64,000 nt of DNA, taken from assembly GCA_036925085.1 (NCBI GenBank), contig JAUPFP010000086.1, positions 1 through 64,000 on the forward strand, read 5' to 3'. This DNA comes from Brachycybe producta. Its lineage: Eukaryota > Arthropoda > Diplopoda > Playtdesmida > Andrognathidae. The position numbers and the translations under genes are program-made. Shown here in pieces: positions 1-21,200 of this stretch. The notes beneath the pieces were generated by a model. It did no database searches. It was not told the origin of the DNA and worked only from the letters and a program-made list of their open reading frames with translations. Numbering within the stretch: the stretch's first letter is position 1; every line of letters begins with the position of its first letter.

Positions 1-180
1 CGAAAAACGCGCGAAAATTTGAAAAATAAGCCAACACGCTCTACACGCCCTTTAAAAAAATGTTAAAAATTTAAAAAAATTGCGGAACATTTTTTTTCCG
101 GATAGTTAATTACTGTAAGTTATGTGTACTAAGTGTACGTACCTTATACTATTATTACCTAATTTTAAATATTGAAAAAC

Positions 181-1215
181 GCGGGAAAATTTTGAAAAAT
201 AAGCCAACACGCCCTACACGCCCTCTAAAAAAAATTTAAAAATCGAAAAAAAAATCGCAGAAAAAGTTTTTTCCAGCAAGGTAATGATGTAAGTTATGTG
301 TATTAAGTGTACGTACCTTATACTAATATTACCTAATTTTAAATATCAAAAACGCGCGAAAATTTTGAAAAATAAGCCAACACGCCCTACATGCCCTCTA
401 AAAAAAATTTAAAAATCGAAAAAAAATCGCGGAAAATTTTTTTCCGGATAGTTAATAACTGTATATTATGTGTACTAAGTGTATGTACCTAATAGTGTTA
501 TTAGCTCTTTTTCAATATATGAAAATTTTGAAAAATAAGACAACACGCCCTACACGCCCTCTAAAATAGTTTAAAAATCGAAAAAAAATTGCGGACATTT
601 TTTTTCCGGTTAGGTAATGACTTTATTTAATTTTTACTAACTGTACGTACCTTATACTATTATTACCTAATTTTAAATATTGAAAAACGCGGGAAAATTT
701 TGAAAAATAAGCCAACACGCCCTACACGCCCTCTAAAAAAAATTTAAAAATCGAAAAAAAATCGCAGAAAAAGTTTTTTCCAGCAAGGTAATGATGTAAG
801 TTATGTGTACTAAGTGTACGTACCTTATACTAATATTACCTAATTTTAAATATCAAAAACGCGCGAAAATTTTGAAAAATAAGCCAACACGCCCTACATG
901 CCCTCTAAAAAAAATTTAAAAATCGAAAAAAAATCGCGGAAAATTTTTTTCCGGATAGTTAATAACTGTATGTTATGTGTACTAAGTGTATGTACCTAAT
1001 AGTGTTATTAGCTCTTTTTCAATATATGAAAATTTTGAAAAATAAGACAACACGCCCTACACGCCCTCTAAAATAATTTAAAAATCGAAAAAAAATTGCG
1101 GAAAATTTTTTTCCGGTTAGGTAATGACTTTATTTAATTTTTACTAACTGTACGTACCTTATACTATTATTACCTAATTTTAAATATTGAAAAACGCGGG
1201 AAAATTTTGAAAAAT
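181..1215 (+). repeat. Basal three-monomer HOR, two copies of 507 bp
   Basis: The landmark triplet 309/481/643 recurs at 816/988/1150, exactly 507 bp later each time. The three monomer types also recur in order: one with cagaaaaagttttttccagcaagg, one with ggataGTTAATAACTG and GTATGTACCTAATAGTGTTATTAGC, and one with TTTATTTAATTTTTACTAACTG. Similarity between copies is much higher than between neighbouring monomers, which defines a higher-order repeat. The second copy starts to diverge near 1215, where a GTGTGGAAATAG-type monomer begins. A three-step spacing summing to about 507-510 bp also appears in the right array, so the trimer looks like the basal unit of the whole satellite. Confidence 0.9.
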
Positions 1216-1820
1216 AAGCCAACACACCCTACACGCCCTCTAAAAAAAATTTAAAAATCGAAAAAAAGTGTGGAAATAGTTTTTTCCGGGTAGTTAATGA
1301 CTGTATATTATGTGTACTAAGTGTTCGTACCTTATACTAATATTACCTAAATTTAAATATACGAAAATTTCGAAAAATGAGCCAACACGCCCTACACGCC
1401 GTTTAAAAAAATGTTAAAAATTTAAAAAAATTGCGGAACATTTTTTTTCCGGATAGTTAATTACTGTAAATTATGTGTACTAAGTGTACGTACCTTATAC
1501 TATTATTACCTAAATTTAAATATCGAAAAACGCGCGAAAATTTAAAAATAAGCCAACAGGCCCCTACACGCCCTCTAAAAAAAATTTAAAAATCGAAAAA
1601 AAGTGTGGAAATAGTTTATTCCGGGTAGTTAATGACTGTATATTATGTGTACTAAGTGTACGTACCTTATACTAATATTACCTAAATTTAAATATACGAA
1701 AATTTCGAAAAATGAGCCAACACGCCCTACACGCCCTTTAAAAAAATGTTAAAAATTTAAAAAAATTGCGGAACATTTTTTTTCCGGATAGTTAATGAAT
1801 GTAAGTTATGTGTACTAAGT

Positions 1821-1952
1821 GTACGTACCTTATACTAATAATACCTAATTTTAAATATCGAAAAACGCGCGAAAATTTTGAAAAATAAGCCAACACGCCC
1901 TACACGCCATCTAAAAAAATTTTAATTAATTAATAATTAATTTTTACTAAGT
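1821..1952 (+). repeat. Truncated 132-bp monomer
   Basis: Landmark spacing here is only 132 bp (1821 to 1953) against the usual 162-174. The middle of the monomer, including the CGGAAA...TTTCCG dyad and the GTTAATGACTG segment, is replaced by a short AT run (ttaattaattaataattaa). An identical short copy sits at 7818-7949 as part of unit B, so the truncation predates the 6-kb duplication. Confidence 0.85.
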
Positions 1953-2193
1953 GTACGTATCTTATACTAATATTACCTAATTTTAAATATTGAAAAACGC
2001 GCGAAAATTTCGAAAAATAAGACAATAAACCCTACACGCCCTTTAAAAAAAATTTATCGAAAAACGCGAGAAAATTTTGAAAAATAATCCAACACGCCCT
2101 ACACGCCCCTCTAAAAAAATTTAAAAATCGAAAAAAAATCGCAGAAAAAGTTTTTTCCAGCAAGGTAATGACTGTAAGTTATGTGTACTAAGT
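1953..2193 (+). repeat. Fused 241-bp monomer with duplicated head
   Basis: Landmark spacing is 241 bp. The monomer head (gaaaaacgcgcg through the cacgccc region) occurs twice: once at about 1990-2055, then again from the junction aaaaatttaTCGAAAAACGCGAG at about 2053. This is what remains of two adjacent monomers after loss of about 100 bp between them. The matching copy in unit B is at 7950-8189 (240 bp). Confidence 0.83.
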
Positions 2194-5100
2194 GTACGTA
2201 CCTTATACTAATATTACCTAATTTTAAATATCAAAAACGCGCGAAAATTTTGAAAAATAAGCCAACACGCCCTACACGCCCTCTAAAAAAAATTTAAAAA
2301 TCGAAAAAAAATCGCGGAAAATTTTTTTCCGAATAGTTAATAACTGTATGTTATGTGTACTAAGTGTATGTTCCTAAAAGTGTTATTAGCTCTTTTTCAA
2401 TATACGAAAATTTTGAAAAATAAGACAACACGCCCTACACGCCCTCTAAAATAATTTAAAAATCGAAAAAAAATCGCGGAAAAAATTTTTTCCGGGTAGT
2501 TAATGACTGTATGTTATGTGTACTAAGTGTACATACCTAATAGTATCATTAGCTATTTTTAAATATACGAAAAATTCGACAAATGAGCCAACACGAACTA
2601 CACGCCCATTAAAAAAATGTTAAAAATTTAAAAAAATTGCGGAAAATATTTTTTCTGGATAGTTAATGACTGTAAGTTATGTGTACTAAGTGTACGTACC
2701 TTATACTATTATTACCTAACTTTAAATATCGAAAAACACGCGAAAATTTTCAAAAATAAGCCAACACGCCCTACACGCCCTCTAAAAAAATTTTAAAATC
2801 GAAAAAAAATCGCGGAAAATTTTTTTTCCAGATAGTTATTGACTGCATATTATGTGTACTAAATGTACGTACCTTATACTAATAATACCTAATTTTAAGT
2901 ATCGAAAAACGCGCGAAAATATCTAAAAATTAGCCAACACGCCCTACACGCCATCTAAAAAAATTTAAAAATCTAATAAAAATCGCGGAAAAAGTTTTTT
3001 CCGGGTAGTAAATGACTGTATGTTATGTGTACTAAGCGTACGTACCTAATAGAATAATAGCTATTTTTAAATATACGAAAATTTCGACAAATGAGCCAAC
3101 ACGCCCTACACGCCCTTTAAAAAAAATTTAAAAATTTAAAAAAAATGCGGAAATTTTTTTTTCCTGGTAGATAATGACTGTATGTTATGTGTACTAAGTG
3201 TACGTACCTTATACTAATAATACCTAACTTTAAATATCAAAAAACGCGCGAAAATTTCGAAAAAACAAACAACACGCCCTACACGCCCTCTAAAAAAATT
3301 TAAAAAATCGAAACAAAGTCGCGTAAATTTTTTTTTCCGGCAAGGTAATGACTGTAAGTTATGTGTTCTAAATGTACGTACCTTATACTAATAATACCTA
3401 ATTTTAAATATCGAAAAACGCGCGAAAATTTTGAAAAATAAGCCAACACGCCCTACACGTCCTCTAAAAAAATTTAAAAATCGAAAAAAAAACGCGGAAT
3501 AAGTTTATTTCCGGATAGTTAATGACTGTAAGTTATGTGTACTAAGTGTACGTACCTTATACTAATAATACCTAATTTTAAATATCGAAAAACGCGCGAA
3601 AATTTTGAAAAATAAGCCAACACGCCCTACACGCCATCTAAAAAAATTTTAAAAATCGAAAAAAAATCGCGGAAAAAGTTTTTTCCGGGTAGATAATGTC
3701 TTTATGTTATGTGTACTAAGTGTACGTACCTTATACTAATATTAAATAATTTTAAATCTTGAAAAACGCGCGAAAATTTCGAAAAATAAGACAATACACC
3801 CTACACGCCCTTTAAAAAAAATTTAAAAGTTTAAAAAAATTGTAGAAAATTTTTTTCCGGGTAGGTAATGACTTTATGTTATGTGTACTAAGTGTACGTG
3901 CTTTATACTAATATTACCTAAGTTTAAATATCAAAAAACGCGCGAGAATTTCGAAAAATAAGACAACACGCCCTAAACGCCCTCGAAAAAAATTTAAAAA
4001 TAAAAAAAAATCGCGGAAAAAGTTTTTTCCGGGTAGTTAATGACTGTATGTTATGTGTACTAAGTGTACGTACCTAATAATATCATTAGCTATTTTTAAA
4101 TATACGAAAATTTCGACAAATGAGCCAAAACGTCCTTTAAAAAAATTTAAAAAATTTAAAAAAATTGTGGAAAATTTTTTTCCGGTTAGGTAATGACTTT
4201 ATTTAATTTTTACTAACTGTACGTACCTTATGCTATTATTACCTAATTTTAAATATCGAAAAACGAGCGAAAATTTCGAAAAATAAGACAACACGCCCTA
4301 CACGCCCTCTAAAAAAAATTTAAAAGTCGAAATAAAATCGCAGAAAATTTTTTTTCCGGCAATTTAATGGTTGTATGTTATGTGTACTAAGTGTACATAC
4401 CTTATAGTAACATTTCTTAAATTTAAATATTAAAAAACGAGCAAAAATTTTGAAAAATAAGCCAACACGCCCTGCACGTCCTCTAAACAAATTTAAACAT
4501 CGAAAAAAAAATCGCGGAAAAAGTATTTTCCGGGTAGGTAATGACTTTATGTTATGTGTACTAAGTGTACGTACCTTATACTAATATTAGCTAATTTTAA
4601 ATATCGAAAAACGCGCGAAAAGTTTGAAAAATAAGCCAACACGCCCTACACGCCCTCTAAAAAAATTTAAAAAATCGAAATAAATTCGCGTAATATTTTT
4701 TTCCCGGCAAGGTAATGACTGTAAGTTATGTGTACTAAGTGTACGTACCTTATACTAATATTACCTAAATTTAAATATCGAAAAACGCTCGAAATTTTCT
4801 AAAAATTAGCCAACAGGCCCTACACGCCATCTAAAAAAAATTTAAAAATCTAAAAAAAATCGCGGAAAAAGTTTTTTCCGGGTAGTTAAGGACTGTATGT
4901 TATGTGTACTAAGTGTACGTACCTAATAGTATCATTAGCTATTTTTAAATATACGAAAATTTTGACAAATGAGCTAACACGCCCTACACGCCCTTTAAAA
5001 AAATATTAAAAATTTTAAAAAAAACGCGGAAAATTTTTTTCCGGGTAGGTAATGACTTTATGTTATGTGTACTAAGTGTACGTACCTTATACTAATTTTA

Positions 5101-5844
5101 CCTAATTTTAAATATTGAAAAACGCGCAAAAGTTTTGAAAAATAAGACAACACGCCCTACACGCCCTTTAAAAAAAATTTAAAAATTTAAAAAAATTGTG
5201 GAAATTTTTTTTCCGGTTAGGCAATGATTTTATTTAATTTTTACTAACTGTACGTACCTTAAACTAATATACCTAATTTTAAATATCGAAAAACGCGCGA
5301 AAAGTTTGAAAAATAAGCCAACACACCCTACACGCCCTTTAAAAAAATTTAAAAATCGAAAAAAAATCGCGGAAAAAGTTTTTTCTATGTAGTTAATGAC
5401 TGTATGTTATGTGTACTGAGTGTACGTACTTTACACTAATATTACCTAATTTTAAATATCGAAAAACGCGCGAAATTTTTGAAAAATAAGCCAACAGGCC
5501 CTACACGCCCTCTAAAAAAAATTTAAAAATCGAAAAAAAATCGCGGAAAATTTTTTTTCCAGATAGTTAATGACTGTATGTTATGTGTACTAAGTGTATG
5601 TACCTTATACTAGTATTAATTAATTTTAAATATTGAATAACGCGCGAAAACTTTGAAAAATAAGCCAACACGCCCTACACGCCCTCTAAAAAAATTTTAA
5701 AAATCGAAAAAAAAAATCGCGGAAAATTTTTTTTCCGGGTAGTTAATGATTGTATGTTATGTGTACTAAGTGTACGTACCTTATACTAATAATACATAAT
5801 TTTAAATATCAAAAAACGCGCGATAATTTCGAAAAAACAAACAA

Positions 5845-5871
5845 CACGCCCTACACACCCTACACGCCCTC
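5845..5871 (+). repeat. 9-bp doublet expanded to a triplet
   Basis: The C-rich core of the monomer is normally two 9-mers, CACGCCCTA and CACGCCCTC. Here there are three: CACGCCCTA at 5845-5853, CACACCCTA at 5854-5862 and CACGCCCTC at 5863-5871. The middle copy has one G-to-A change. Confidence 0.9.
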
Positions 5872-8280
5872 TAAAAAAAATTTAAAAATCGAAATAAAAT
5901 CTCGGAAAATTTTTTTTCCGGCAATTTAATGACTGTATGTTATGTGTACTAAGTGTACATACCTTATAGTAACATTTCTTAAATTTAAATATCAAAAAAC
6001 GCGCAAAAATTTTGAAAAATAAGCCAACACGCCCTGCACGTCCTCTAAAAAAATTTAAAAATCGACAAAAAAATCGCGGAAAAAGTATTTTCCGGGTAGG
6101 TAATAACTTTATGTTATGTGTACTAAGTGTACGTACCTTATACTAATATTACCTAATTTTAAATATCGAAAAACGCGCGAAAAGTTTGAAAAACAAGCCA
6201 ACACGCCCTACACGCCCTCTAAAAAAATTTAAAAAATCGAAATAAAATCGCGTAAAATTTTTTTTTCCGGCAAGGTAATGACTGTAAGTTATGTGTACTA
6301 AGTGTACGTACCTTATACTAATAATACCTAATTTTAAACATCAAAAACGCGCGAAAATTTTGAAAAATAAGCCAACACGCCCTACATGCCCTCTAAAAAA
6401 AATTTAAAAATCGAAAAAAAATCGCGGAAAATTTTTTTTCCGGATAGTTAATAACTGTATGTTATGTGTACTAAGTGTATGTACCTAATAGTGTTATTAG
6501 CTCTTTTTCAATATACGAAAATTTTGAAAAATAAGACAACACGCCCTACACGCCCTCTAAAATAATTTAAAAATCGAAAAAAAATCGCGGAAAAATTTTT
6601 TTCCGGGTAGTTAATGACTGTATGTTATGTGTACTAAGTGTACGTACCTTATACTAATAATACCTAATTTTATGTATCAAAAAACGCGCGAAAATATCTA
6701 AAAATTAGCCAACACGCCCTACACGCCATCTAAAAAAAATTAAAAATCTAAAAAAAAATCGCGGAAAAAGTTTTTTCCAGCAAGGTAATGATGTAAGTTA
6801 TGTGTACTAAGTGTACGTACCTTATACTAATATTACCTAATTTTAAATATCAAAAACGCGCGAAAATTTTGAAAAATAAGCCAACACGCCCTACATGCCC
6901 TCTAAAAAAAATTTAAAAATCGAAAAAAAATCGCGGAAAATTTTTTTCCGGATAGTTAATAACTGTATGTTATGTGTACTAAGTGTATGTACCTAATAGT
7001 GTTATTAGCTCTTTTTCAATATATGAAAATTTTGAAAAATAAGACAACACGCCCTACACGCCCTCTAAAATAATTTAAAAATCGAAAAAAAATTGCGGAA
7101 AATTTTTTTCCGGTTAGGTAATGACTTTATTTAATTTTTACTAACTGTACGTACCTTATACTATTATTACCTAATTTTAAATATTGAAAAACGCGGGAAA
7201 ATTTTGAAAAATAAGCCAACACACCCTACACGCCCTCTAAAAAAAATTTAAAAATCGAAAAAAAGTGTGGAAATAGTTTTTTCCGGGTAGTTAATGACTG
7301 TATATTATGTGTACTAAGTGTTCGTACCTTATACTAATATTACCTAAATTTAAATATACGAAAATTTCGAAAAATGAGCCAACACGCCCTACACGCCGTT
7401 TAAAAAAATGTTAAAAATTTAAAAAAATTGCGGAACATTTTTTTTTCCGGATAGTTAATTACTGTAAATTATGTGTACTAAGTGTACGTACCTTATACTA
7501 TTATTACCTAAATTTAAATATCGAAAAACGCGCGAAAATTTTAAAAATAAGCCAACAGGCCCTACACGCCCTCTAAAAAAATTTAAAAATCGAAAAAAAG
7601 TGTGGAAATAGTTTATTCCGGGTAGTTAATGACTGTATATTATGTGTACTAAGTGTACGTACCTTATACTAATATTACCTAAATTTAAATATACGAAAAT
7701 TTCGAAAAATGAGCCAACACGCCCTACACGCCCTTTAAAAAAATGTTAAAAATTTAAAAAAATTGCGGAACATTTTTTTTCCGGATAGTTAATGAATGTA
7801 AGTTATGTGTACTAAGTGTACGTACCTTATACTAATAATACCTAATTTTAAATATCGAAAAACGCGCGAAAATTTTGAAAAATAAGCCAACACGCCCTAC
7901 ACGCCATCTAAAAAAATTTTAATTAATTAATAATTAATTTTTACTAAGTGTACGTATCTTATACTAATATTACCTAATTTTAAATATTGAAAAACGCGCG
8001 AAAATTTCGAAAAATAAGACAATAAACCCTACACGCCCTTTAAAAAAAATTTATCGAAAAACGCGAGAAAATTTTGAAAAATAATCCAACACGCCCTACA
8101 CGCCCTCTAAAAAAATTTAAAAAACGAAAAAAAATCGCAGAAAAAGTTTTTTCCAGCAAGGTAATGACTGTAAGTTATGTGTACTAAGTGTACGTACCTT
8201 ATACTAATATTACCTAATTTTAAATATCAAAAACGCGCGAAAATTTTGAAAAATAAGCCAACACGCCCTACACGCCCTCT

Positions 8281-10655
8281 AAAAAAAATTTAAAAATCGA
8301 AAAAAAATCGCGGAAAATTTTTTTCCGAATAGTTAATAACTGTATGTTATGTGTACTAAGTGTATGTTCCTAAAAGTGTTATTAGCTCTTTTTCAATATA
8401 CGAAAATTTTGAAAAATAAGACAACACGCCCTACACGCCCTCTAAAATAATTTAAAAATCGAAAAAAAATCGCGGAAAAAATTTTTTCCGGGTAGTTAAT
8501 GACTGTATGTTATGTGTACTAAGTGTACATACCTAATAGTATCATTAGCTATTTTTAAATATACGAAAAATTCGACAAATGAGCCAACACGAACTACACG
8601 CCCATTAAAAAAATGTTAAAAATTTAAAAAAAATTGCGGAAAATATTTTTTCTGGATAGTTAATGACTGTAAGTTATGTGTACTAAGTGTACGTACCTTA
8701 TACTATTATTACCTAACTTTAAATATCGAAAAACACGCGAAAATTTTCAAAAATAAGCCAACACGCCCTACACGCCCTCTAAAAAAATTTTAAAATCGAA
8801 AAAAAAATCGCGGAAAATTTTTTTTCCAGATAGTTATTGACTGCATATTATGTGTACTAAATGTACGTACCTTATACTAATAATACCTAATTTTAAGTAT
8901 CGAAAAACGCGCGAAAATATCTAAAAATTAGCCAACACGCCCTACACGCCATCTAAAAAAATTTAAAAATCTAATAAAAATCGCGGAAAAAGTTTTTTCC
9001 GGGTAGTAAATGACTGTATGTTATGTGTACTAAGCGTACGTACCTAATAGAATAATAGCTATTTTTAAATATACGAAAATTTCGACAAATGAGCCAACAC
9101 GCCCTACACGCCCTTTAAAAAAAATTTAAAAATTTAAAAAAAATGCGGAAATTTTTTTTTCCTGGTAGATAATGACTGTATGTTATGTGTACTAAGTGTA
9201 CGTACCTTATACTAATAATACCTAACTTTAAATATCAAAAAACGCGCGAAAATTTCGAAAAAACAAACAACACGCCCTACACGCCCTCTAAAAAAATTTA
9301 AAAAATCGAAACAAAGTCGCGTAAATTTTTTTTTCCGGCAAGGTAATGACTGTAAGTTATGTGTTCTAAATGTACGTACCTTATACTAATAATACCTAAT
9401 TTTAAATATCGAAAAACGCGCGAAAATTTTGAAAAATAAGCCAACACGCCCTACACGTCCTCTAAAAAAATTTAAAAATCGAAAAAAAAACGCGGAATAA
9501 GTTTATTTCCGGATAGTTAATGACTGTAAGTTATGTGTACTAAGTGTACGTACCTTATACTAATAATACCTAATTTTAAATATCGAAAAACGCGCGAAAA
9601 TTTTGAAAAATAAGCCAACACGCCCTACACGCCATCTAAAAAAATTTTAAAAATCGAAAAAAAATCGCGGAAAAAGTTTTTTCCGGGTAGATAATGTCTT
9701 TATGTTATGTGTACTAAGTGTACGTACCTTATACTAATATTAAATAATTTTAAATCTTGAAAAACGCGCGAAAATTTCGAAAAATAAGACAATACACCCT
9801 ACACGCCCTTTAAAAAAAATTTAAAAGTTTAAAAAAATTGTAGAAAATTTTTTTCCGGGTAGGTAATGACTTTATGTTATGTGTACTAAGTGTACGTGCT
9901 TTATACTAATATTACCTAAGTTTAAATATCAAAAAACGCGCGAGAATTTCGAAAAATAAGACAACACGCCCTAAACGCCCTCGAAAAAAATTTAAAAATA
10001 AAAAAAAAATCGCGGAAAAAGTTTTTTCCGGGTAGTTAATGACTGTATGTTATGTGTACTAAGTGTACGTACCTAATAATATCATTAGCTATTTTTAAAT
10101 ATACGAAAATTTCGACAAATGAGCCAAAACGTCCTTTAAAAAAATTTAAAAAATTTAAAAAAATTGTGGAAAATTTTTTTCCGGTTAGGTAATGACTTTA
10201 TTTAATTTTTACTAACTGTACGTACCTTATGCTATTATTACCTAATTTTAAATATCGAAAAACGAGCGAAAATTTCGAAAAATAAGACAACACGCCCTAC
10301 ACGCCCTCTAAAAAAAATTTAAAAGTCGAAATAAAATCGCGGAAAATTTTTTTTCCGGCAATTTAATGGTTGTATGTTATGTGTACTAAGTGTACATACC
10401 TTATAGTAACATTTCTTAAATTTAAATATTAAAAAACGAGCAAAAATTTTGAAAAATAAGCCAACACGCCCTGCACGTCCTCTAAACAAATTTAAACATC
10501 GAAAAAAAAATCGCGGAAAAAGTATTTTCCGGGTAGGTAATGACTTTATGTTATGTGTACTAAGTGTACGTACCTTATACTAATATTAGCTAATTTTAAA
10601 TATCGAAAAACGCGCGAAAAGTTTGAAAAATAAGCCAACACGCCCTACACGCCCT
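8281..10655 (+). repeat. Internal duplication inside unit B, first copy
   Basis: The stretch starting near 8281 recurs about 2,377 bp downstream: the marker CCGAATAG is at 8325 and again at 10702. Both copies carry the rare tail GTATGTTCCTAAAAGTGTTATTAGC and the unusual gagccaacacgaactacacgcccatt monomer. In unit A the corresponding sequence occurs once. This is the step that made unit B longer than A. Confidence 0.82.
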
Positions 10656-12835
10656 CTAAAAAAAATTTAAAAATCGAAAAAAAATCGCGGAAAATTTTTT
10701 TCCGAATAGTTAATAACTGTATGTTATGTGTACTAAGTGTATGTTCCTAAAAGTGTTATTAGCTCTTTTTCAATATACGAAAATTTTGAAAAATAAGACA
10801 ACACGCCCTACACGCCCTCTAAAATAATTTAAAAATCGAAAAAAAAATCGCGGAAAAAATTTTTTCCGGGTAGTTAATGACTGTATGTTATGTGTACTAA
10901 GTGTACATACCTAATAGTATCATTAGCTATTTTTAAATATACGAAAAATTCGACAAATGAGCCAACACGAACTACACGCCCATTAAAAAAATGTTAAAAA
11001 TTTAAAAAAATTGCGGAAAATATTTTTTCTGGATAGTTAATGACTGTAAGTTATGTGTACTAAGTGTACGTACCTTATACTATTATTACCTAACTTTAAA
11101 TATCGAAAAACACGCGAAAATTTTCAAAAATAAGCCAACACGCCCTACACGCCCTCTAAAAAAATTTTAAAATCGAAAAAAAATCGCGGAAAATTTTTTT
11201 TCCAGATAGTTATTGACTGCATATTATGTGTACTAAATGTACGTACCTTATACTAATAATACCTAATTTTAAGTATCGAAAAACGCGCGAAAATATCTAA
11301 AAATTAGCCAACACGCCCTACACGCCCTTTAAAAAAAATTTAAAAATTTAAAAAAAATGCGGAAATTTTTTTTTCCTGGTAGATAATGACTGTATGTTAT
11401 GTGTACTAAGTGTACGTACCTTATACTAATAATACCTAACTTTAAATATCAAAAAACGCGCGAAAATTTCGAAAAAACAAACAACACGCCCTACACGCCC
11501 TCTAAAAAAATTTAAAAAATCGAAACAAAGTCGCGTAAATTTTTTTTTCCGGCAAGGTAATGACTGTAAGTTATGTGTTCTAAATGTACGTACCTTATAC
11601 TAATAATACCTAATTTTAAATATCGAAAAACGCGCGAAAATTTTGAAAAATAAGCCAACACGCCCTACACGTCCTCTAAAAAAATTTAAAAATCGAAAAA
11701 AAAACGCGGAATAAGTTTATTTCCGGATAGTTAATGACTGTAAGTTATGTGTACTAAGTGTACGTACCTTATACTAATAATACCTAATTTTAAATATCGA
11801 AAAACGCGCGAAAATTTTGAAAAATAAGCCAACACGCCCTACACGCCATCTAAAAAAATTTTAAAAATCGAAAAAAAATCGCGGAAAAAGTTTTTTCCGG
11901 GTAGATAATGTCTTTATGTTATGTGTACTAAGTGTACGTACCTTATACTAATATTAAATAATTTTAAATCTTGAAAAACGCGCGAAAATTTCGAAAAATA
12001 AGACAATACACCCTACACGCCCTTTAAAAAAAATTTAAAAGTTTAAAAAAATTGTAGAAAATTTTTTTCCGGGTAGGTAATGACTTTATGTTATGTGTAC
12101 TAAGTGTACGTGCTTTATACTAATATTACCTAAGTTTAAATATCAAAAAACGCGCGAGAATTTCGAAAAATAAGACAACACGCCCTAAACGCCCTCGAAA
12201 AAAATTTAAAAATAAAAAAAAATCGCGGAAAAAGTTTTTTCCGGGTAGTTAATGACTGTATGTTATGTGTACTAAGTGTACGTACCTAATAATATCATTA
12301 GCTATTTTTAAATATACGAAAATTTCGACAAATGAGCCAAAACGTCCTTTAAAAAAATTTAAAAAATTTAAAAAAATTGTGGAAAATTTTTTTCCGGTTA
12401 GGTAATGACTTTATTTAATTTTTACTAACTGTACGTACCTTATGCTATTATTACCTAATTTTAAATATCGAAAAACGAGCGAAAATTTCGAAAAATAAGA
12501 CAACACGCCCTACACGCCCTCTAAAAAAAATTTAAAAGTCGAAATAAAATCGCGGAAAATTTTTTTTCCGGCAATTTAATGGTTGTATGTTATGTGTACT
12601 AAGTGTACATACCTTATAGTAACATTTCTTAAATTTAAATATTAAAAAACGAGCAAAAATTTTGAAAAATAAGCCAACACGCCCTGCACGTCCTCTAAAC
12701 AAATTTAAACATCGAAAAAAAAATCGCGGAAAAAGTATTTTCCGGGTAGGTAATGACTTTATGTTATGTGTACTAAGTGTACGTACCTTATACTAATATT
12801 AGCTAATTTTAAATATCGAAAAACGCGCGAAAAGT
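10656..12835 (+). repeat. Internal duplication inside unit B, second copy
   Basis: This is the second copy of the 8.28-10.65 kb segment. It lacks one monomer: at about 11320 the sequence passes from gccaacacgccctacacgccc directly to ctttaaaaaaaatttaaaaattt, skipping the atctaaaaaaatt monomer present at about 8950-9110. The copy is therefore about one monomer shorter than the first. It ends where the order returns to that of unit A (cgaaataaattcgcgtaat, near 12890). Confidence 0.8.
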
Positions 12836-14229
12836 TTGAAAAATAAGCCAACACGCCCTACACGCCCTCTAAAAAAATTTAAAAAATCGAAATAAATTCG
12901 CGTAATATTTTTTTCCCGGCAAGGTAATGACTGTAAGTTATGTGTACTAAGTGTACGTACCTTATACTAATAATACCTAATTTTAAATATCGAAAAACGC
13001 GCGAAATTTTCTAAAAATTAGCCATCACGCCCTACACGCAATCTAAAAAAAATTTAAAAATCGAAAAAAAATCGCGGAAAATTTTTTTTACAGATAGTCA
13101 TTGACTGTATGTTATGTGTACTAAGTGTACATACCTTATACTAATATTACCTAAATTTAAATATCGAAAAACGCTCGAAATTTTCTAAAAATTAGTTAAC
13201 AGGCCCTACACGCCATCTAAAAAAAATTTAAAAATCTAAAAAAAATCGCGGAAAAAGTTTTTTCCGGGTAGTTAAGGACTGTATGTTATGTGTACTAAGT
13301 GTACGTACCTAATAGTATCATTAGCTATTTTTAAATATACGAAAATTTTGACAAATGAGCTAACACGCCCTACACGCCCTTTAAAAAATATTAAAAATTT
13401 TAAAAAAAACGCGGAAAATTTTTTTCCGGGTAGGTAATGACTTTATGTTATGTGTACTAAGTGTACGTACCTTATACTAATTTTACCTAATTTTAAATAT
13501 TGAAAAACGCGCAAAAGTTTTGAAAAATAAGACAACACGCCCTACACGCCCTTTAAAAAAAATTTAAAAATTTAAAAAAATTGTGGAAATTTTTTTTCCG
13601 GTTAGGCAATGATTTTATTTAATTTTTACTAACTGTACGTACCTTAAACTAATATACCTAATTTTAAATATCGAAAAACGCGCGAAAAGTTTGAAAAATA
13701 AGCCAACACACCCTACACGCCCTTTAAAAAAATTTAAAAATCGAAAAAAAATCGCGGAAAAAGTTTTTTCTATGTAGTTAATGACTGTATGTTATGTGTA
13801 CTGAGTGTACGTACTTTACACTAATATTACCTAATTTTAAATATCGAAAAACGCGCGAAATTTTTGAAAAATAAGCCAACAGGCCCTACACGCCCTCTAA
13901 AAAAAATTTAAAAATCGAAAATAAATCGCGGAAAATTTTTTTTCCAGATAGTTAATGACTGTATGTTATGTGTACTAAGTGTATGTACCTTATACTAGTA
14001 TTAATTAATTTTAAATATTGAATAACGCGCGAAAACTTTGAAAAATAAGCCAACACGCCCTACACGCCCTCTAAAAAAATTTTAAAAATCGAAAAAAAAA
14101 ATCGCGGAAAATTTTTTTTCCGGGTAGTTAATGATTGTATGTTATGTGTACTAAGTGTACGTACCTTATACTAATAATACATAATTTTAAATATCAAAAA
14201 ACGCGCGATAATTTCGAAAAAACAAACAA

Positions 14230-14256
14230 CACGCCCTACACACCCTACACGCCCTC
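14230..14256 (+). repeat. 9-bp triplet, unit B copy
   Basis: The three 9-mers of 5845-5871 recur here with the same CACACCCTA middle copy, at the offset expected for the later part of unit B (about 8,385 bp). This confirms the mapping of 12.84-15.15 kb to 4.65-6.77 kb. Confidence 0.9.
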
Positions 14257-15149
14257 TAAAAAAAATTTAAAAATCGAAATAAAATCTCGGAAAATTTTTT
14301 TTCCGGCAATTTAATGACTGTATGTTATGTGTACTAAGTGTACATACCTTATAGTAACATTTCTTAAATTTAAATATCAAAAAACGCGCAAAAATTTTGA
14401 AAAATAAGCCAACACGCCCTGCACGTCCTCTAAAAAAATTTAAAAATCGACAAAAAAATCGCGGAAAAAGTATTTTCCGGGTAGGTAATAACTTTATGTT
14501 ATGTGTACTAAGTGTACGTACCTTATACTAATATTACCTAATTTTAAATATCGAAAAACGCGCGAAAAGTTTGAAAAACAAGCCAACACGCCCTACACGC
14601 CCTCTAAAAAAATTTAAAAAATCGAAATAAAATCGCGTAAAATTTTTTTTCCGGCAAGGTAATGACTGTAAGTTATGTGTACTAAGTGTACGTACCTTAT
14701 ACTAATAATACCTAATTTTAAACATCAAAAACGCGCGAAAATTTTGAAAAATAAGCCAACACGCCCTACATGCCCTCTAAAAAAAATTTAAAAATCGAAA
14801 AAAAATCGCGGAAAATTTTTTTTCCGGATAGTTAATAACTGTATGTTATGTGTACTAAGTGTATGTACCTAATAGTGTTATTAGCTCTTTTTCAATATAC
14901 GAAAATTTTGAAAAATAAGACAACACGCCCTACACGCCCTCTAAAATAATTTAAAAATCGAAAAAAAATCGCGGAAAAATTTTTTTCCGGGTAGTTAATG
15001 ACTGTATGTTATGTGTACTAAGTGTACGTACCTTATACTAATAATACCTAATTTTATGTATCAAAAAACGCGCGAAAATATCTAAAAATTAGCCAACACG
15101 CCCTACACGCCATCTAAAAAAAATTAAAAATCTAAAAAAAATCTCGGAA

Positions 15150-15543
15150 AAAGTTTTTTCCGGGTAGGAAATGACTGTATGTTATGTGTACTAAGTGTAT
15201 GTACCTAATAGTATCATTAGCTATTTTTAAATATACGAAAATTTTGACAAATGAGCCAACACGCCCTACACGCCCTTTAAAAAAATTTAAAAATTTAAAA
15301 AAAATGCGGAAATTTTTTTTTCCTGGTAGATAATGACTGTATGTTATGTGTACTAAGTGTACGTACGTATTATTAGCTAATTTTAAATATACGAAAATTT
15401 CGAAAAATAAGCCAACACGCCCTACACGCCCTCTAAAAAAAATTTAAAAATCGAAAAAAAATCTCGGAAAAAGTTTTTCCAGGTAGATAATGACTGTATG
15501 TTATGTGTACTAAGTGTACGTACCTTATACTAATATTACATAA
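15150..15543 (+). repeat. Array tail next to the island
   Basis: These last two to three monomers before the island do not continue the order of units A and B. They include a tail with GTGTACGTACGTATTATTAGC near 15356-15378, in which ccttatact is missing. The final monomer stops at attacataa (15535-15543), after which the sequence changes completely. Confidence 0.85.
15535..15543. repeat. Left copy of 9-bp flanking duplication (attacataa)
   Basis: The 9-mer attacataa ends the left array. The same 9-mer begins the right array at 18217-18225, where it runs straight into ttttaaatatcg as in an ordinary monomer. Some intact monomers also carry acataattttaaat (near 5790 and 14180), so the site is a natural monomer sequence. 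The arrangement is that of a target-site duplication. Confidence 0.72.
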
Positions 15544-15719
15544 CTAGTGGGGTAACCTGTCATAAATGACGGGAGCATCTAGTTTCTTTTTGTGTGACTG
15601 TCCGGTTGTCATGAAGCAATTCGCCTTGACCACTTGTGTTTTTTATAAGCACCTTAATATTGTTATAGGTATGTGAAGACAGGGAGATACAGTCGTGTGC
15701 CCCGCCCCTTTATGACTGT

Positions 15720-15821
15720 CAGACCAAATATCAACCAATTGGAAATTGAAAAGAACGGGGCATGTGACGTCAGACCAAATAACAACCAATTCAAAATTGA
15801 AAAGAACGGGGCATGTGACAT
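15720..15821 (+). repeat. 51-bp tandem repeat, two copies, with CCAAT boxes
   Basis: Copies at 15720-15770 and 15771-15821 differ at four positions by eye. Each contains CAACCAATT (a CCAAT box), a GAAAAGAACGGGGCATG segment and TGAC[G/A]TC at the end. In the first copy CCAATTGG (15735-15742) is a perfect palindrome. Duplicated CCAAT-type modules just upstream of a TATA-like box are common in pol II promoters and viral or transposon enhancers. Confidence 0.9.
15765..15772. promoter_or_regulatory. CRE palindrome TGACGTCA
   Basis: A perfect TGACGTCA, the consensus site for CREB/ATF-type bZIP factors in animals, spans the junction of the two 51-bp copies. The corresponding site at 15816-15823 is TGACATCA, one base off. 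Function is inferred from the motif and its position about 90 bp upstream of the TATA-like box. Confidence 0.5.
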
Positions 15822-15856
15822 CAGACGACATAAAATAATTAAAAGTTGCTGGCCCT

Positions 15857-15890
15857 CATAAAAAGGCGGGGAAAACGACTGTATTTTACT
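15857..15890 (+). promoter_or_regulatory. TATA-like box and likely start region
   Basis: CATAAAAAGGCGGGG at about 15857-15871 looks like a TATA element followed by a G-rich flank. A start would be expected about 25-30 bp downstream, near gactgtattttactgtc (15877-15893). With the CCAAT and CRE sites upstream this makes a plausible plus-strand pol II promoter reading towards the minisatellite. No coding sequence follows, so any transcript would be non-coding. Confidence 0.4.
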
Positions 15891-15920
15891 GTCTTTACTT
15901 GCCTGTCCTTACTATTGTTT

Positions 15921-15988
15921 GGATTCTTGGATCGGGAGAGTGCAACATAAAGTTGACCATGAGAAAAAAGCAGTTCATTTAAATTTCA
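15921..15988 (+). repeat. Direct-repeat block, copy 1
   Basis: This block contains TTCTTGGATCGGGAGAG, TGCAACATAAAGTTGACC, a tgagaaaaaag stretch and GCAGTTCATTT. It recurs with a few changes at 18046-18122 in the same orientation. The two copies bracket the minisatellite, about 2.1 kb apart, so the minisatellite and the 17.8-18.0 kb segment sit between direct repeats. Confidence 0.85.
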
Positions 15989-16003
15989 ATCTGATTAAGT
16001 TTT

Positions 16004-17524
16004 TGTCCTAAAACAATTTACCCTAAAGAAACATTTGCCCTAAAGAAACATTTGCCCTAAAGGGAGATATTGCCCTAAAGGGAGATATTGCCGTAAAGGG
16101 AGATATTGCCATAAAGGGAGATATTGCCCTAAAGGGACATTTGCCCTAAAGGGACATTTGCCCTAAAGGGAGATATTGCCCTAAAGGGAGATATTGCCCT
16201 AAAGGGACATTTGCCCTAAAGGGACATTTGCCCTAAAGGGACATTTGCCCTAAAGGGACATTTGCCCTAAAGGGACATTTGCCCTAAATGACATTTGCCC
16301 TAAAGGGACATTTGCCCTAAATTGAGATATTGCCCTAAAGGGAGATATTGCCCTAAAGGGAGATATTGCCCTAAAGGGAGATATTGCCCTAAAGGGACAT
16401 TTGCCCTAAAGGGACATTTGCCCTAAAGGGACATTTGCCCTAAAGGGACATTTGCCCTAAAGGGACATTTGCCCTAAAGGGACATTTGCCCTAAATGACA
16501 TTTGCCCTAAAGGGACATTTGCCCTAAATTGAGATATTGCCCTAAAGGGAGATATTGCCCTAAAGGGAGATATTGCCCTAAAGGGACATTTGCCCTAAAG
16601 GGACATTTGCCCTAAAGGGACATTTGCCCTAAAGGGACATTTGCCCTAAAGGGACATTTGCCCTAAATGACATTTGCCCTAAAGGGACATTTGCCCTAAA
16701 TTGAGATATTGCCCTAAAGGGAGATATTGCCCTAAAGGGAGATATTGCCCTAAAGGGAGATATTGCCCTAAAGGGAGATATTGCCCTAAAGGGAGATATT
16801 GCCCTAAAGGGAGATATTGCCCTAAAGGGACATTTGCCCTAAAGGGACATTTGCCCTAAAGGGAGATATTGCCCTAAAGGGAGATATTGCCCTAAAGGGA
16901 GATATTGCCCTAAAGGGAGATATTGCCCTAAAGGGAGATATTGCCCTAAAGGGAGATATTGCCCTAAAGGGAGATATTGCCCTAAAGGGAGATATTGCCC
17001 TAAAGGGAGATATTGCCCTAAAGGGAGATATTGCCCTAAAGGGAGATATTGCCCTAAAGGGAGATATTGCCCTAAAGGGAGATATTGCCCTAAAGGGAGA
17101 TATTGCCCTAAAGGGAGATATTGCCCTAAAGGGAGATATTGCCCTAAAGGGAGATATTGCCCTAAATGGAGATATTGCCCTAAAGGGAGATATTGCCCTA
17201 AAAAGACATTTGCCCTTAAAAGACATTTGCCCTAAAAAGACATTTGATCTAAAAAAACATTTGCCCTAAAAAGACATTTGCCCTAAAAAGACATTTGCCC
17301 TAAAAAGACATTTGCCCTAAAAAGACATTTGCCATAAAAAGACATTTGCCCTAAAAAGACATTTGCCCTAAAAAGACATTTGCCCTAAAAAGACATTTGC
17401 CCTAAAAAGACATTTGCCCTAAAAAGACATTTGCCCTAAAGGGACATTTACCCTAAAGGGACATTTGCCCTAAAAGGACATTTGCCCTAAAAAAACATTT
17501 GCCCTAAGGAGATGTTCCCCTAAT
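16004..17524 (+). repeat. Minisatellite, forward arm (17/18-bp units)
   Basis: About 1.5 kb of contiguous short units share the core TTGCCCTAAA. Three unit types occur: an 18-mer GGGAGATATTGCCCTAAA, a 17-mer GGGACATTTGCCCTAAA and a 17-mer AAGACATTTGCCCTAAA. The first units (16004-16060) are degenerate (CAATTTACCCTAAAG, AAACATTTG). From 16150 to 16760 the 17- and 18-mers alternate in blocks. From about 16862 to 17205 nearly every unit is the 18-mer, and from about 17205 to 17445 nearly every unit is the AAGACATTTG 17-mer. Each GGG unit junction gives CCCT-AA-AGGG, a small inverted repeat. Long minus-strand frames here only reflect 18 being a multiple of 3. Confidence 0.96.
16286..16720 (+). 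repeat. Block repeats inside the minisatellite
   Basis: A shortened unit, CCCTAAATGACATTTG, recurs with AAATG at 16286, 16493 and 16665 (spacings 207 and 172 bp). Each time it is followed by one normal 17-mer and then the odd junction CCCTAAATTGAGATATTG. The same composite block has therefore been copied about three times, with slightly different numbers of units. The minisatellite thus has its own higher-order structure. Confidence 0.85.
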
Positions 17525-17549
17525 GAGTAGTCTAAATATACAGTAATTG

Positions 17550-17795
17550 GTTTTAGGGCATATGTTCTTTGAGGGCAAATAGTTTTAGGGCAAATGTTTT
17601 TAAGGGCAAGTGGTTTTAGGGCAAGTTGTTTTAGAGCAAATGTTCTATTAGAGTAAATAGTTTTAGGGTAAATGGTTTTAGGGCAAGTGTTCCTTGAGGG
17701 CAAATAGTTTTAGGGCAATGGTTTTAGGGCAAATGTTCTATTAGGGTAAATGGTTTTAAGGAAAATGTTCCATTAGGGTTAATTGTTTTTATGGC
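17550..17795 (-). repeat. Minisatellite, inverted arm
   Basis: After a spacer of about 25 bp (17525-17549, tctaaatatacagtaattgg) the unit reappears as its reverse complement: TTTTAGGGCAAATG replaces CATTTGCCCTAAAA. About 14 units follow, with variants such as TTAGAGCAAATG, TTAGGGTAAATGG and GGGCAAGTGTTCC. They are clearly more diverged than the forward arm and fade out at attagggttaattgtttttatggc. Together the arms could form a hairpin with a stem of up to about 250 bp, mismatches included. Confidence 0.93.
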
Positions 17796-17893
17796 ACAAT
17801 TGCCTGTGATAAACTGTAGTTTAATTTTGCAACTATTATCCCCTCCCCTTTTTATATTTGAAATAGAAAATGTGTTTTTCATTTTCTCTGATG

Positions 17894-17905
17894 TGCGCAT
17901 GCGCG
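17894..17905. promoter_or_regulatory. NRF1-type site TGCGCATGCGCG
   Basis: The sequence matches the NRF1 consensus YGCGCAYGCGCR at every position and contains the 10-bp palindrome GCGCATGCGC. NRF1 sites are common in animal promoters, which mildly favours an animal host. No transcription unit can be tied to it here; a chance match in alternating CpG-rich sequence is possible. Confidence 0.4.
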
Positions 17906-17944
17906 TCGTTTTTTTTTTTTTTTACTAATTTCATTTCAATTTCA

Positions 17945-18030
17945 GTCACCCCCTCCCACTTTTCCTCCCTCCACGTTTCTCTCTCGCCCCCCCCCCTTCT
18001 ACACTTTCCATCCAACCTTTCCCCCTCTCC
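17945..18030. repeat. Polypyrimidine tract
   Basis: This is an almost pure C/T stretch on the plus strand (caccccctcccacttttcc, then ctctcgccccccccccttct and ctttccccctctcc). The minus strand has G runs of 5 and 10, so it could form triplex or quadruplex structures. Confidence 0.8.
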
Positions 18031-18045
18031 AATTTAATATCATGG

Positions 18046-18122
18046 GGTTCTTGGATGGGAAGGGTGCAACATATAGTTGACCTTGAGAAAAAAAAAAGCT
18101 GTTCATTTCTTCATTTATTTAA
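18046..18122 (+). repeat. Direct-repeat block, copy 2
   Basis: TTCTTGGATGGGAAGGG, TGCAACATATAGTTGACC, a longer A run (tgagaaaaaaaaaag) and GCTGTTCATTT match 15921-15988 with a few substitutions and an expanded A run. An extra cttcatttattt precedes aaattta. The copies differ enough to be old relative to the near-identical satellite units. Confidence 0.85.
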
Positions 18123-18216
18123 ATTTATATAAATTCCGATGTGCTTCAATGGTTGTACAGCGTTATTTCAGACAGAAAGACAGATACACAGACCTGGGAT
18201 ATTATATATATATTAC
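18123..18216. other. Right end of the island
   Basis: About 90 bp follow the direct-repeat block: ccgatgtgcttcaatggttg, a CAGA-rich stretch (cagacagaaagacagatac), then ctgggatattatatatatattac. Nothing here is a terminal inverted copy of the left end at 15544. It meets the resumed satellite at attacataa. Confidence 0.7.
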
Positions 18217-18225
18217 ATTACATAA
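18217..18225. repeat. Right copy of 9-bp flanking duplication (attacataa)
   Basis: The 9-mer matches 15535-15543 exactly and continues into ttttaaatatcgaaaaatgcg, an ordinary monomer head in phase with the left array. Confidence 0.72.
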
Positions 18226-21200
18226 TTTTAAATATCGAAAAATGCGCGAAAAGTTTGAAAAATAAGCCAACACGCCCTACAGGCTCTCTAAAAAAAATTT
18301 AAAAATCGAAAAAAAAATCGCGGAAAAACTTTTTTCCGGGTAGTTAATGACTGTATGTTATGTGTACTAAGTGTACGTACCTTATACTAATAATACCTAA
18401 TTTTAAATATCAAAAAACGCGCGAAAATTTCGAAAAAACAAACAACACTCCTTACACGCCCTCTAAAAAAATTTAAAAAATCGAAATAAAGTCCCGTAAA
18501 TTTTTTTTTCTGGCAAGGTAATGACTGTAAGTTATGTGTTCTAAGTGTACGTACCTTATACTAATAATACCTAATTTTAAATATCGAAAAACGCGCGAAG
18601 TTTTCTAAAAATTAGCCAACACGCCCTACAAGCCATCTAAAAAAAAATTAAAAATCTAAAAAAAATCGCGGAAAATTTTTTTCCGGGTAGATAATGACTG
18701 TATGTTATGTGTACTAAGTGTACGTACCTTATACTAATAATACCTAGTTTTAAATATCGAAAAACGCGCGAAAATTTTGAAAAATAAGACAACACGCCCT
18801 ACATGCCCTCAATAAAAATTTAAAAATAAAAAAAAATCGCGGAAAATATTTTTTCCGGATTGTTAATGATTGTAAGTTATGTGTACTAAGTGTACGTACC
18901 TTATACTATTATTACCTAAATTTAAATATTGAAAAACGCGTGAAAATTTTGAAAAATAAGCCAACAGGCCCTACACGCCCTCTAAAAAAAATTTAAAAAT
19001 TATAAAAAAAATCGCGGAAATTTTTTTTTCCAGATAGTTATTGACTGTATGTTATGTGTACTAAGTGTACATACCTAATAGTATCATTAGCTATTTTTAA
19101 ATATACGAATATATACTAATATTAGCTAATTTTAAATATCCAAAACGCGCGAAAATTTTGAAAGATAAGCCAACACGCCCTACACGCCCTCTAAAAAAAA
19201 TTTAAAAATCGAAAAAAAGTGTGGAAATAGTTTTTTCCGGGTAGTTAATGACTGTATATTATGTGTACTAAGTGTACGTACCTTATACTAATATTACCTA
19301 AATTTAAATATACGAAAATTTCGAAAAATGAGCCAACACGCCCTACACGCCCTTTAAAAAAATGTTAAAAATTTAAAAAAATTGAGGAACATTTTTTTTC
19401 CGGATAGTTAATTACTGTAAGTTATGTGTACTAAGTGTACGTACCTTATACTATTATTACCTAAATTTAAATATCGAAAAACGTGCGAAAATTTTAAAAA
19501 TAAGCCAACAGGCCCTACACGCCCTCTAAAAAAAATTTAAAAATCGAAAAAAAATCGCGGAAAATTTTTTTCCGGATAGTTAATGACTGTATGTTATGTG
19601 TAATAAGTGTATGTACCTAATAGTATCATTAGCTCTTTTTAAATATACGAAAAATTCGACAAATGAGCCAACACGCCCTACACGCCCATTAAAAAAATGT
19701 TAAAAATTTAAAAAAATTGCGGAACATTTTTTTTCCGGATAGTTAATTACTGTAAGTTATGTGTACTAAGTGTACGTACCTTATACTATTATTACCTAAG
19801 TTTAAATATCGAAAAAAGCGCAAAAATTTTGAAAAATAAGCCAACAGGCCCTACACGCCCATTAAATAAATGTTAAAAATCGAAAAAAAATCGCGGAAAT
19901 TTTTTTTTCCAGATAGTTATTGACTGTATGTTATGTGTACTAAGTGTACATACCTAATAGTATCATTTGCTATTTTTAAATATAAGATAATTTCGACAAA
20001 TAAACCAACACACCCTACACGCCCTTTAATAAAAAATTTAAAAATTTAAAAAAATTGCGGAACATTTTTTTTCCGGGTAGATAATGACTTTATGTTATGT
20101 GTACTAAGGGTATGTACCTTATACTAATAATACCTACTTTTAAATATCGAAAAACGCGCGAAAATTTTGAAAAATAAGCCAACACGCCCTACACGTCCTC
20201 TAAAAAAATTTAAAAATCGAAAAAAAAACGCGGAATAAGATTTTTCAGGATAGATAATGACTATAAGTTATGTGTACTAAGTGTGCGTACCTTATACTAA
20301 TATTACCTAATTTTAAATATTGAAAAACGCACGAAAATTTTGAAAAATAAGCCAACACGCCCTACACGTCCTCAAAAAAAATTAAAAATAAAAAAAAATC
20401 GCGGAAAATATTTTTTCCGGATAGTTAATGATTTTAAGTTAAGTTATGTGTACTAAGTGTTCGTACCCTATACTAATATTACCAAGATTTAAATATCAAA
20501 AACGCGCGAGAAGTTTGAAAAATAAGCCAACATGCCCTACACGCCCTCTAAAAAAATTTAAAAATCGAAAAAAAATCGCGGAACAAGTTTTTTCCGGATA
20601 GTTAAAGATTGTATGTTATGTGTACTAAGTGTACGTACCTAATAGTATCATTTGCTATTTTTAAATATACGAAAAATTCGAAAAATGAGCCAACACGCCC
20701 TACACGCCCACTAAAAAAATGTTAAAAATTTAAAACAATTGCGGAAATTTTTTTTTCCGGATAGTTAATTACTGTAAGTTATGTGTACTAAATGTACGTA
20801 CCTTATACTATTATTACCTAAATTTAAATATCGAAATACGCGCGAAAATTTTGAAAAATAAGCCAACAGGCCCTACACGCCCTTTAAAAAAAATTTAAAA
20901 ATAAAAAAAAAATCGCGGAAAATTTTTTTTCCAGATAGTTATTGACTGTATGTTATGTGTACTAAGTGTACATACCTAATAGTATCATTAGCTATTTTTA
21001 AATATACGAAAATTTCGACAAATGAGCCAACACGCCCTACACGCCCTTTAAAAAAATTTAAAAATTTAAAAAAATTGCGGAACATTTTTTTTCCGGGTAG
21101 ATAATGACTTTATGTTATGTGTACTAAGTGTACGTACCTTATACTAATAATGCCTACTTTTAAATATTGAAAAACGCGCGAAAATTTTGAAAAATAAGCC

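Follow-up and report, generated by a model that had tools for sequence, protein, structure and literature searches.

A 2.67-kb island with a 9-bp flanking duplication and one Helitron-like end in a millipede satellite array

The DNA considered here (the window) comprises the first 64,000 nucleotides, read on the forward strand, of contig JAUPFP010000086.1 from the millipede Brachycybe producta (assembly GCA_036925085.1). One satellite with a period of ~172 bp spans bases 2-64000 of the window and hosts an inserted island of 2673 bp (15544-18216), which is to be assigned to the minus strand only if the Helitron-like reading discussed below is right. The 9-mer ATTACATAA forms the last satellite bases before the island (15535-15543) and again the first satellite bases after it (18217-18225), neither copy being assigned to a strand. 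A first-pass annotation, made from the letters of the DNA, had proposed an island in phase with the satellite between these two 9-mers, and its coordinates are correct to the base.

The evidence for an insertion comes from the 9-mers and from the phase of the array. First, ATTACATAA occurs exactly twice in the 64 kb, at both edges of the island, and has no occurrence on the opposite strand. Among 366 fuzzy satellite matches to the equivalent intact slot, 58 of which come by our reading of the list from another part of the monomer, the sequence is ATTACCTAA in 215 and ATTACATAA in none. The same C-to-A change is present in two of the 366 as AATACATAA, and thus the change alone is not unique, whereas the 9-mer is. 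Identity breaks off immediately on either side of the 9-mers, so the length of the duplication is exactly 9 bp. Second, the anchor spacing over the island is 2857, which leaves 175 bp when the 2673 bp of the island and one 9-mer are removed, the monomer length that had been claimed. This length falls in the 170-176 class, to which 110 of 284 anchor spacings belong (175 itself is seen three times), and the 40 bases on either side of the closed-up join agree with equivalent copies at 0.65-0.95 in nine alignments, which is ordinary for the array. Identical 9-mers at the spacing of the island are found at 13 of 61,300 window positions, the real pair counted in, and the island matches nothing in the remaining window except for two 18-bp matches at E 0.5. 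Because both edge copies share a 9-mer that is absent elsewhere in the array, the earlier proposal of an insertion with target-site duplication is strongly supported. Both copies most likely derive from the slot of one monomer, and not from two slots that agree by chance, and a real insertion with a 9-bp duplication is very probable. Possibly, the pair instead arose from a pre-existing tandem duplication of the slot, but this has no precedent in the window, where none of the 309 measured slots is expanded (307 have 9 bases and two have 8).

The interior of the island is a mosaic of modules that include a nested inverted-repeat element and an inverted minisatellite. This mosaic, together with the Helitron-like left end, was overlooked in the first-pass annotation, although the insertion itself was described correctly. 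On the plus strand, the order of modules begins with a palindrome that has CTAG at both sides (15544-15583) and a 242-bp inverted-repeat element; these are followed by copy 1 of a direct repeat, the minisatellite and its inverted units, and then by a poly-T run, a pyrimidine-rich stretch, copy 2 of the direct repeat and an A+T tract. The arms of the 242-bp element (15665-15906, no strand assigned) agree in 44 of their first 60 positions, with an arm score of 48 against a maximum of 27 in 1000 shuffles, and the RNA fold of 15660-15910 has a z of -8.0. Adjoining it are the direct repeats CCTTAATATTGTT on the left (15652-15664, plus strand) and CCTTACTATTGTT on the right (15907-15919, plus strand), which agree at 12 of 13 positions. 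There are 59 such 13-mer pairs in the non-minisatellite part of the island, and this flanking pair is the sole one outside known repeats, defined here as the 51-bp repeat, the 64-column direct repeat and a low-complexity run at 15974-15976. We read 15665-15906 as possibly an element resembling a miniature inverted-repeat transposable element (MITE), nested in the island. It contains a 51-bp tandem repeat of 2.4 copies (15713-15833, plus strand), and motifs seen by eye at ~15700-15875 are ones that we take to be similar to CCAAT, CRE, GC and TATA boxes.

The two copies of the internal direct repeat (15921-15980 and, near the right end of the island, 18045-18108, both on the plus strand) are identical at 53 of 60 aligned bases and score 74, against a maximum of 32 in 300 shuffles. 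Between them lies the minisatellite, 85.6 copies of a 17/18-bp unit ending in GCCCTAAA (16016-17507, plus strand), which carries block repeats of its own with offsets of ~172-207 among the matches listed, and ~14 diverged units follow in inverted orientation (17548-17789, minus strand; 14.1 copies over 17548-17767). The unit contains CCCTAAA, the plant-type telomere heptamer, which recurs roughly every 17-18 bp through both of the opposed blocks (16016-17789), presumably by coincidence. By 1-kb window, G+C content is 0.34-0.44 in 15001-18000, which is mostly island, and 0.27-0.31 in all others. The ratio of observed to expected CpG is 2.19 in the satellite, a strong enrichment, 0.20 in the whole island and 0.61 in its non-minisatellite part.

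Inverted tandem-repeat arms are shared with foldback elements (FB, Tetris), and the duplication of Tetris is ~8-10 bp (PMC4079207). In the island, however, the inverted minisatellite arms are internal (~16002-17789), more than 400 bp from either end, and the ends of the island are not inverted repeats; a foldback element was rejected.

The island has no coding region and no terminal inverted repeats (TIRs), as had been claimed: outside the minisatellite no stop-to-stop frame exceeds 81 amino acids, and the local score between the ends is 16, against a 95th percentile of 17 in shuffles. A scan of 10 of the 34 listed island frames against Pfam returned only two sub-cut-off matches (E 0.028 and 0.031), which we take as chance, and no match to RepHel, a transposase or a reverse transcriptase. 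Rfam gave no match at the gathering score in 15400-18400, where 11 matches at E up to 5 are all under half of their gathering scores. No tRNA gene is present in the 64-kb window, and a scan of 15544-16020 for bacterial-type promoters and terminators found none.

These results bear on the suggestion, made in the first-pass annotation, that the 9-bp duplication recalls Mutator-like elements (MULEs). A non-autonomous Mutator-type DNA transposon without TIRs would have inserted by cut-and-paste with a 9-bp duplication, and this length is indeed within the 8-11 bp of MULE duplications, some MULEs being without TIRs (PMC6446971). VANC, an anti-silencing protein of such elements in Arabidopsis, has targets that often form tandem repeats (PMC5735166). 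The island is like non-TIR MULEs (VANDAL) in its 9-bp duplication, its lack of TIRs and its non-coding tandem repeats, in a comparison that did not include the end sequences, but unlike them it has no transposase match in the scanned frames. The missing TIRs count against a Mutator-type element as well, and they and the length of the duplication are the only features that point to one; we consider this origin improbable.

The left end carries more specific information. Read on the minus strand, it fits the published 3' end of Helitrons, and the earlier statement that the island fits no standard element was thus too strong. Its sequence is CCCGTCATTTATGACAGG-TTACCCCA-CTAG|TTATGTAATATTAG, in which an 18-nt imperfect palindrome (CCCGTCATTTATGACAGG, 15556-15573, minus strand) lies 8 nt before CTAG and 12 nt from the end. 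CTAG (15544-15547, minus strand) fits the CTRR 3' terminus of Helitrons and is joined to T, and the flank on its 3' side, TTATGTAATATTAG, is A+T-rich. The closed-up site on the minus strand, AAAA|TTATGTAAT, is A|T, a weak likeness given that AT makes up 9% of satellite dinucleotides. The plus-strand fold of 15543-15583 has a z of -2.7, and 13 of 1000 shuffles are equally stable. Canonical Helitrons are described as having a 5'-TC, a CTRR terminus that is mostly CTAG, an A|T site, no TIRs and a 16-20 nt hairpin 10-15 nt from the 3' end (PMC6591975). In Helraiser, 11 nt separate a 19-bp palindrome from the end, a CTAG is joined to T, and A+T-rich sequence is favored on the 3' side (PMC4778049). 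The island is like canonical Helitrons (Helitron1; Helraiser/Helibat) in its terminus, palindrome, closed-up site, 3' flank and lack of TIRs, and like the non-autonomous ones among them in its lack of a coding region.

At the right end, a 17-nt A+T tract (TATTATATATATATTAC, 18200-18216, no strand assigned) lies between the first possible minus-strand A|TC and the right 9-mer, and the TATATATA of this tract has no other occurrence in the window. On the minus strand the edge is AAAA-TTATGTAAT-GTAATATATATATAATA-TCCCAGG, in which the repeated 9-mer is followed by GTAAT for the second time, by an A+T run and by the possible A|TC. On its own, the fold of 18040-18216 (z 0.4) lends no support to a structured end. 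We read this junction as made by repair copying. Many animal Helitrons may begin with a similar A+T run followed by a GTCTGTCTG-like sequence; one exact-pattern scan of viral contigs for a start of this kind gave no match.

The same edge is central to a different and rather unlikely explanation, in which a plus-strand retroposon was inserted by target-primed reverse transcription, with its 5' end at 15544, an A+T tail at 18200-18216 as its 3' end and a duplication produced by two staggered nicks. The ends are asymmetric and without TIRs, what may be a simple A+T tail adjoins one copy of the duplication, and 9 bp is a usual length for the duplications of target-primed retroposons. If the island were a composite, non-autonomous retroposon built around a minisatellite, its mode of action would resemble that of the human SVA element, and it is similar to SVA-type composite retroposons in its composite body, central minisatellite, putative simple tail and duplication. 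However, there is no poly-A in the right A+T tract, and no known modules are present in the island. Furthermore, the searches described above gave no tRNA gene, no Rfam match at the gathering score and no reverse transcriptase, a retroposon needs neither the CTAG nor the palindrome of the left end, and a non-coding mosaic of 2.67 kb would in our judgment be unusual for one.

We tentatively favor a Helitron-like origin for the island, as a non-autonomous element whose 5' junction is abnormal. The sequence itself shows the single insertion, the 9-bp duplication, the left-end motif and the closed-up A|T site, whereas Helitron machinery, a minus-strand orientation and repair at the 5' junction are inferred. 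A non-autonomous mobile element, moved by a RepHel enzyme supplied in trans, would have inserted once into one satellite monomer. It would lie on the minus strand, where its 3' end (the palindrome, 8 nt and CTAG) meets the T of an A|T site at 15544, and its 5' end at the right would have been joined abnormally instead of through a clean A|TC junction. At this 5' junction a second copy of the target end (9 bp followed by GTAAT) would have been made and attached to the A+T tract. Central tandem repeats, which have been described for non-autonomous elements of the Helentron branch (PMC7492417), are counted in favor of this reading. Nevertheless, we do not file the island as a Helitron, because two defining features, a 5'-TC and the absence of a duplication, are missing; the left end looks like that of a Helitron, and the element may have worked like one.

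A number of observations weigh against a Helitron-like element, and the island is unlike canonical Helitrons in its duplication, in the lack of TC after A at its other edge and in a palindrome mismatch. Helitrons are described as having no target-site duplication (PMC7492417, PMC5148889, PMC5876387, PMC4038834), because one strand is transferred (PMC5148889, PMC5876387, PMC4038834), and here 9 bp are duplicated. The right edge on the minus strand is GTAATATAT and lacks a TC preceded by A; the nearest A|TC comes 17 nt further in, and such a triplet is fairly often expected by chance. A retroposon tail, with TATTATATATATATTAC before the duplication on the plus strand, accounts for this edge equally well. 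In Helraiser the left (5') end is essential, the TC-A junction is canonical even with the 3' end deleted, and errors fell at the 3' end (PMC4778049); the error assumed here, at the 5' end, is less usual. On the minus strand, six pairs of the palindrome are standard and one is a C-A mismatch. Taken by itself, 15544-15600 does not fold in an unusual way (z -0.9), and CTAG is present at both sides of the palindrome, so that its direction is given by position alone. The likelihood of such an end arising by chance was assessed by counting CTRR-T sites with a palindrome 5-15 nt upstream. Under a strict definition, which requires seven or more unbroken stem pairs, the edge site is excluded by the minus-strand C-A pair; the sole match in the window is the same palindrome on the plus strand, with CTAG at 15579, and shuffles gave 56 in 2,682,000 strand positions. 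A relaxed definition, which tolerates one mismatch and asks for six or more standard pairs, was adopted after this failure. It finds one site on the minus strand, the island edge, and seven on the plus strand, namely six copies of one satellite variant and the palindrome at 15579. Shuffles of the non-minisatellite part of the island then gave 191 in 1,788,000 strand positions, or ~2 in 10,000 for two edges. The true weight of the left-end motif is smaller, perhaps 1 in 1,000 by our estimate, because the definition was relaxed after failure and the motif was chosen after seeing the sequence.

It also weighs against a Helitron-like element that no further copy of the island was found in microbial and viral collections. 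Exact-pattern scans of viral and prokaryotic contig collections gave no island copies, a result with little bearing on a eukaryote and unsurprising for DNA of eukaryotic appearance. BLAST searches returned two Sulfolobus virus records among phages (a 35-bp match) and four Acinetobacter records among plasmids (74% over ~80 bp of minisatellite); we take both sets to be chance matches. A full-text literature search with sequence words returned nothing that looked related by title. The lack of a second copy in these collections fits an origin in which the array suffered a staggered break and non-mobile chromosomal DNA was inserted once as this was repaired, as do the mosaic of unrelated modules and the filler-like bases at the right junction. 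This account leaves a palindrome and a CTAG exactly at the left edge unexpected, and the single-copy state that it invokes is derived from microbial and viral collections only; we regard it as quite improbable.

Two further kinds of rolling-circle element were considered. Helentron-type elements (HINE/DINE-1, the bivalve Pearl, Cg_HINE) are like the island in having flanking modules around a central tandem-repeat array and a palindrome near one end. Unlike them, the island has no convincing subterminal inverted repeat, is not inserted at TT and has a duplication. A search for subterminal inverted repeats of 11-15 bp between the left 60 and right 120 bases yielded 13 candidates of 11-13 bp, all with two mismatches and mostly of low complexity. 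The local score between the island ends is within the range of shuffles, and a Helentron was rejected. We consider it very improbable that the island is a rolling-circle (HUH-type) element whose 3' end is that of a standard Helitron and which regularly produces a 9-bp staggered duplication on integration. If this were true, the regular duplication would represent a way of inserting that the parts of the Helitron literature examined do not mention, and the insertion may also stop local homogenization of the satellite.

The state of the array around the island was followed through the best match elsewhere in the window for each 345-bp segment, with segments overlapping the island excluded and the bounds set after seeing the list. 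Matches of at least 97% are found for 79 of 87 segments starting at 1-14900 and for 237 of 248 starting from 21150 on, but for none of the two starting at 14900-15200 and none of the 17 starting at 18217-21150. For the patch at 15120-21180 the total is 0 of 19, compared with 316 of 335 elsewhere, and beyond the patch segments under 0.96 appear singly or in twos. The last long recent duplication at the left ends at ~15120 and the first at the right begins at ~21180. The island thus lies within an older patch, flanked on both sides by domains that were amplified recently. This patch is lopsided, with ~0.4 kb to the left of the island and 3.0 kb to the right, and in its left part some ungapped 40-bp bins match another copy at 92-100%. 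The island may block exchange locally, or it may survive only where amplification did not reach. The patch accounts for ~3.4 of 61.3 kb of satellite, and a random insertion would land there ~1 time in 18, a figure that is no more than suggestive.

The domains on the two sides carry different sets of recent duplications. At 170-15120 there are higher-order duplications with offsets of ~5997, 8212-8214, 8385 and 2214, mostly 99-100% identical among the matches listed, and the set at 21180-64000 includes, among the matches listed, a 3060-bp unit repeated in tandem at ~51-57 kb as well as copies offset by 28953. A 207-bp monomer at 19043-19250 contains an internal insertion in which, by eye, its own TTAGCTA-TTTTAAATAT part seems to be partly repeated.

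When the phase of a satellite array is known, insertion junctions can be read exactly, since hundreds of neighbors reveal the empty site. The finding is solid, and its interest is moderate until copies are compared. A 9-bp duplication together with a Helitron-like other end is not a combination predicted by the rolling-circle model. Should this combination recur in copies elsewhere, the model needs a second mode of joining, and if they differ, the island would be one repaired junction or another kind of element. The island also marks the sole extended part of the array that was not overwritten by recent amplification, and it offers a small test case for the hypothesis that insertions and array homogenization oppose each other.

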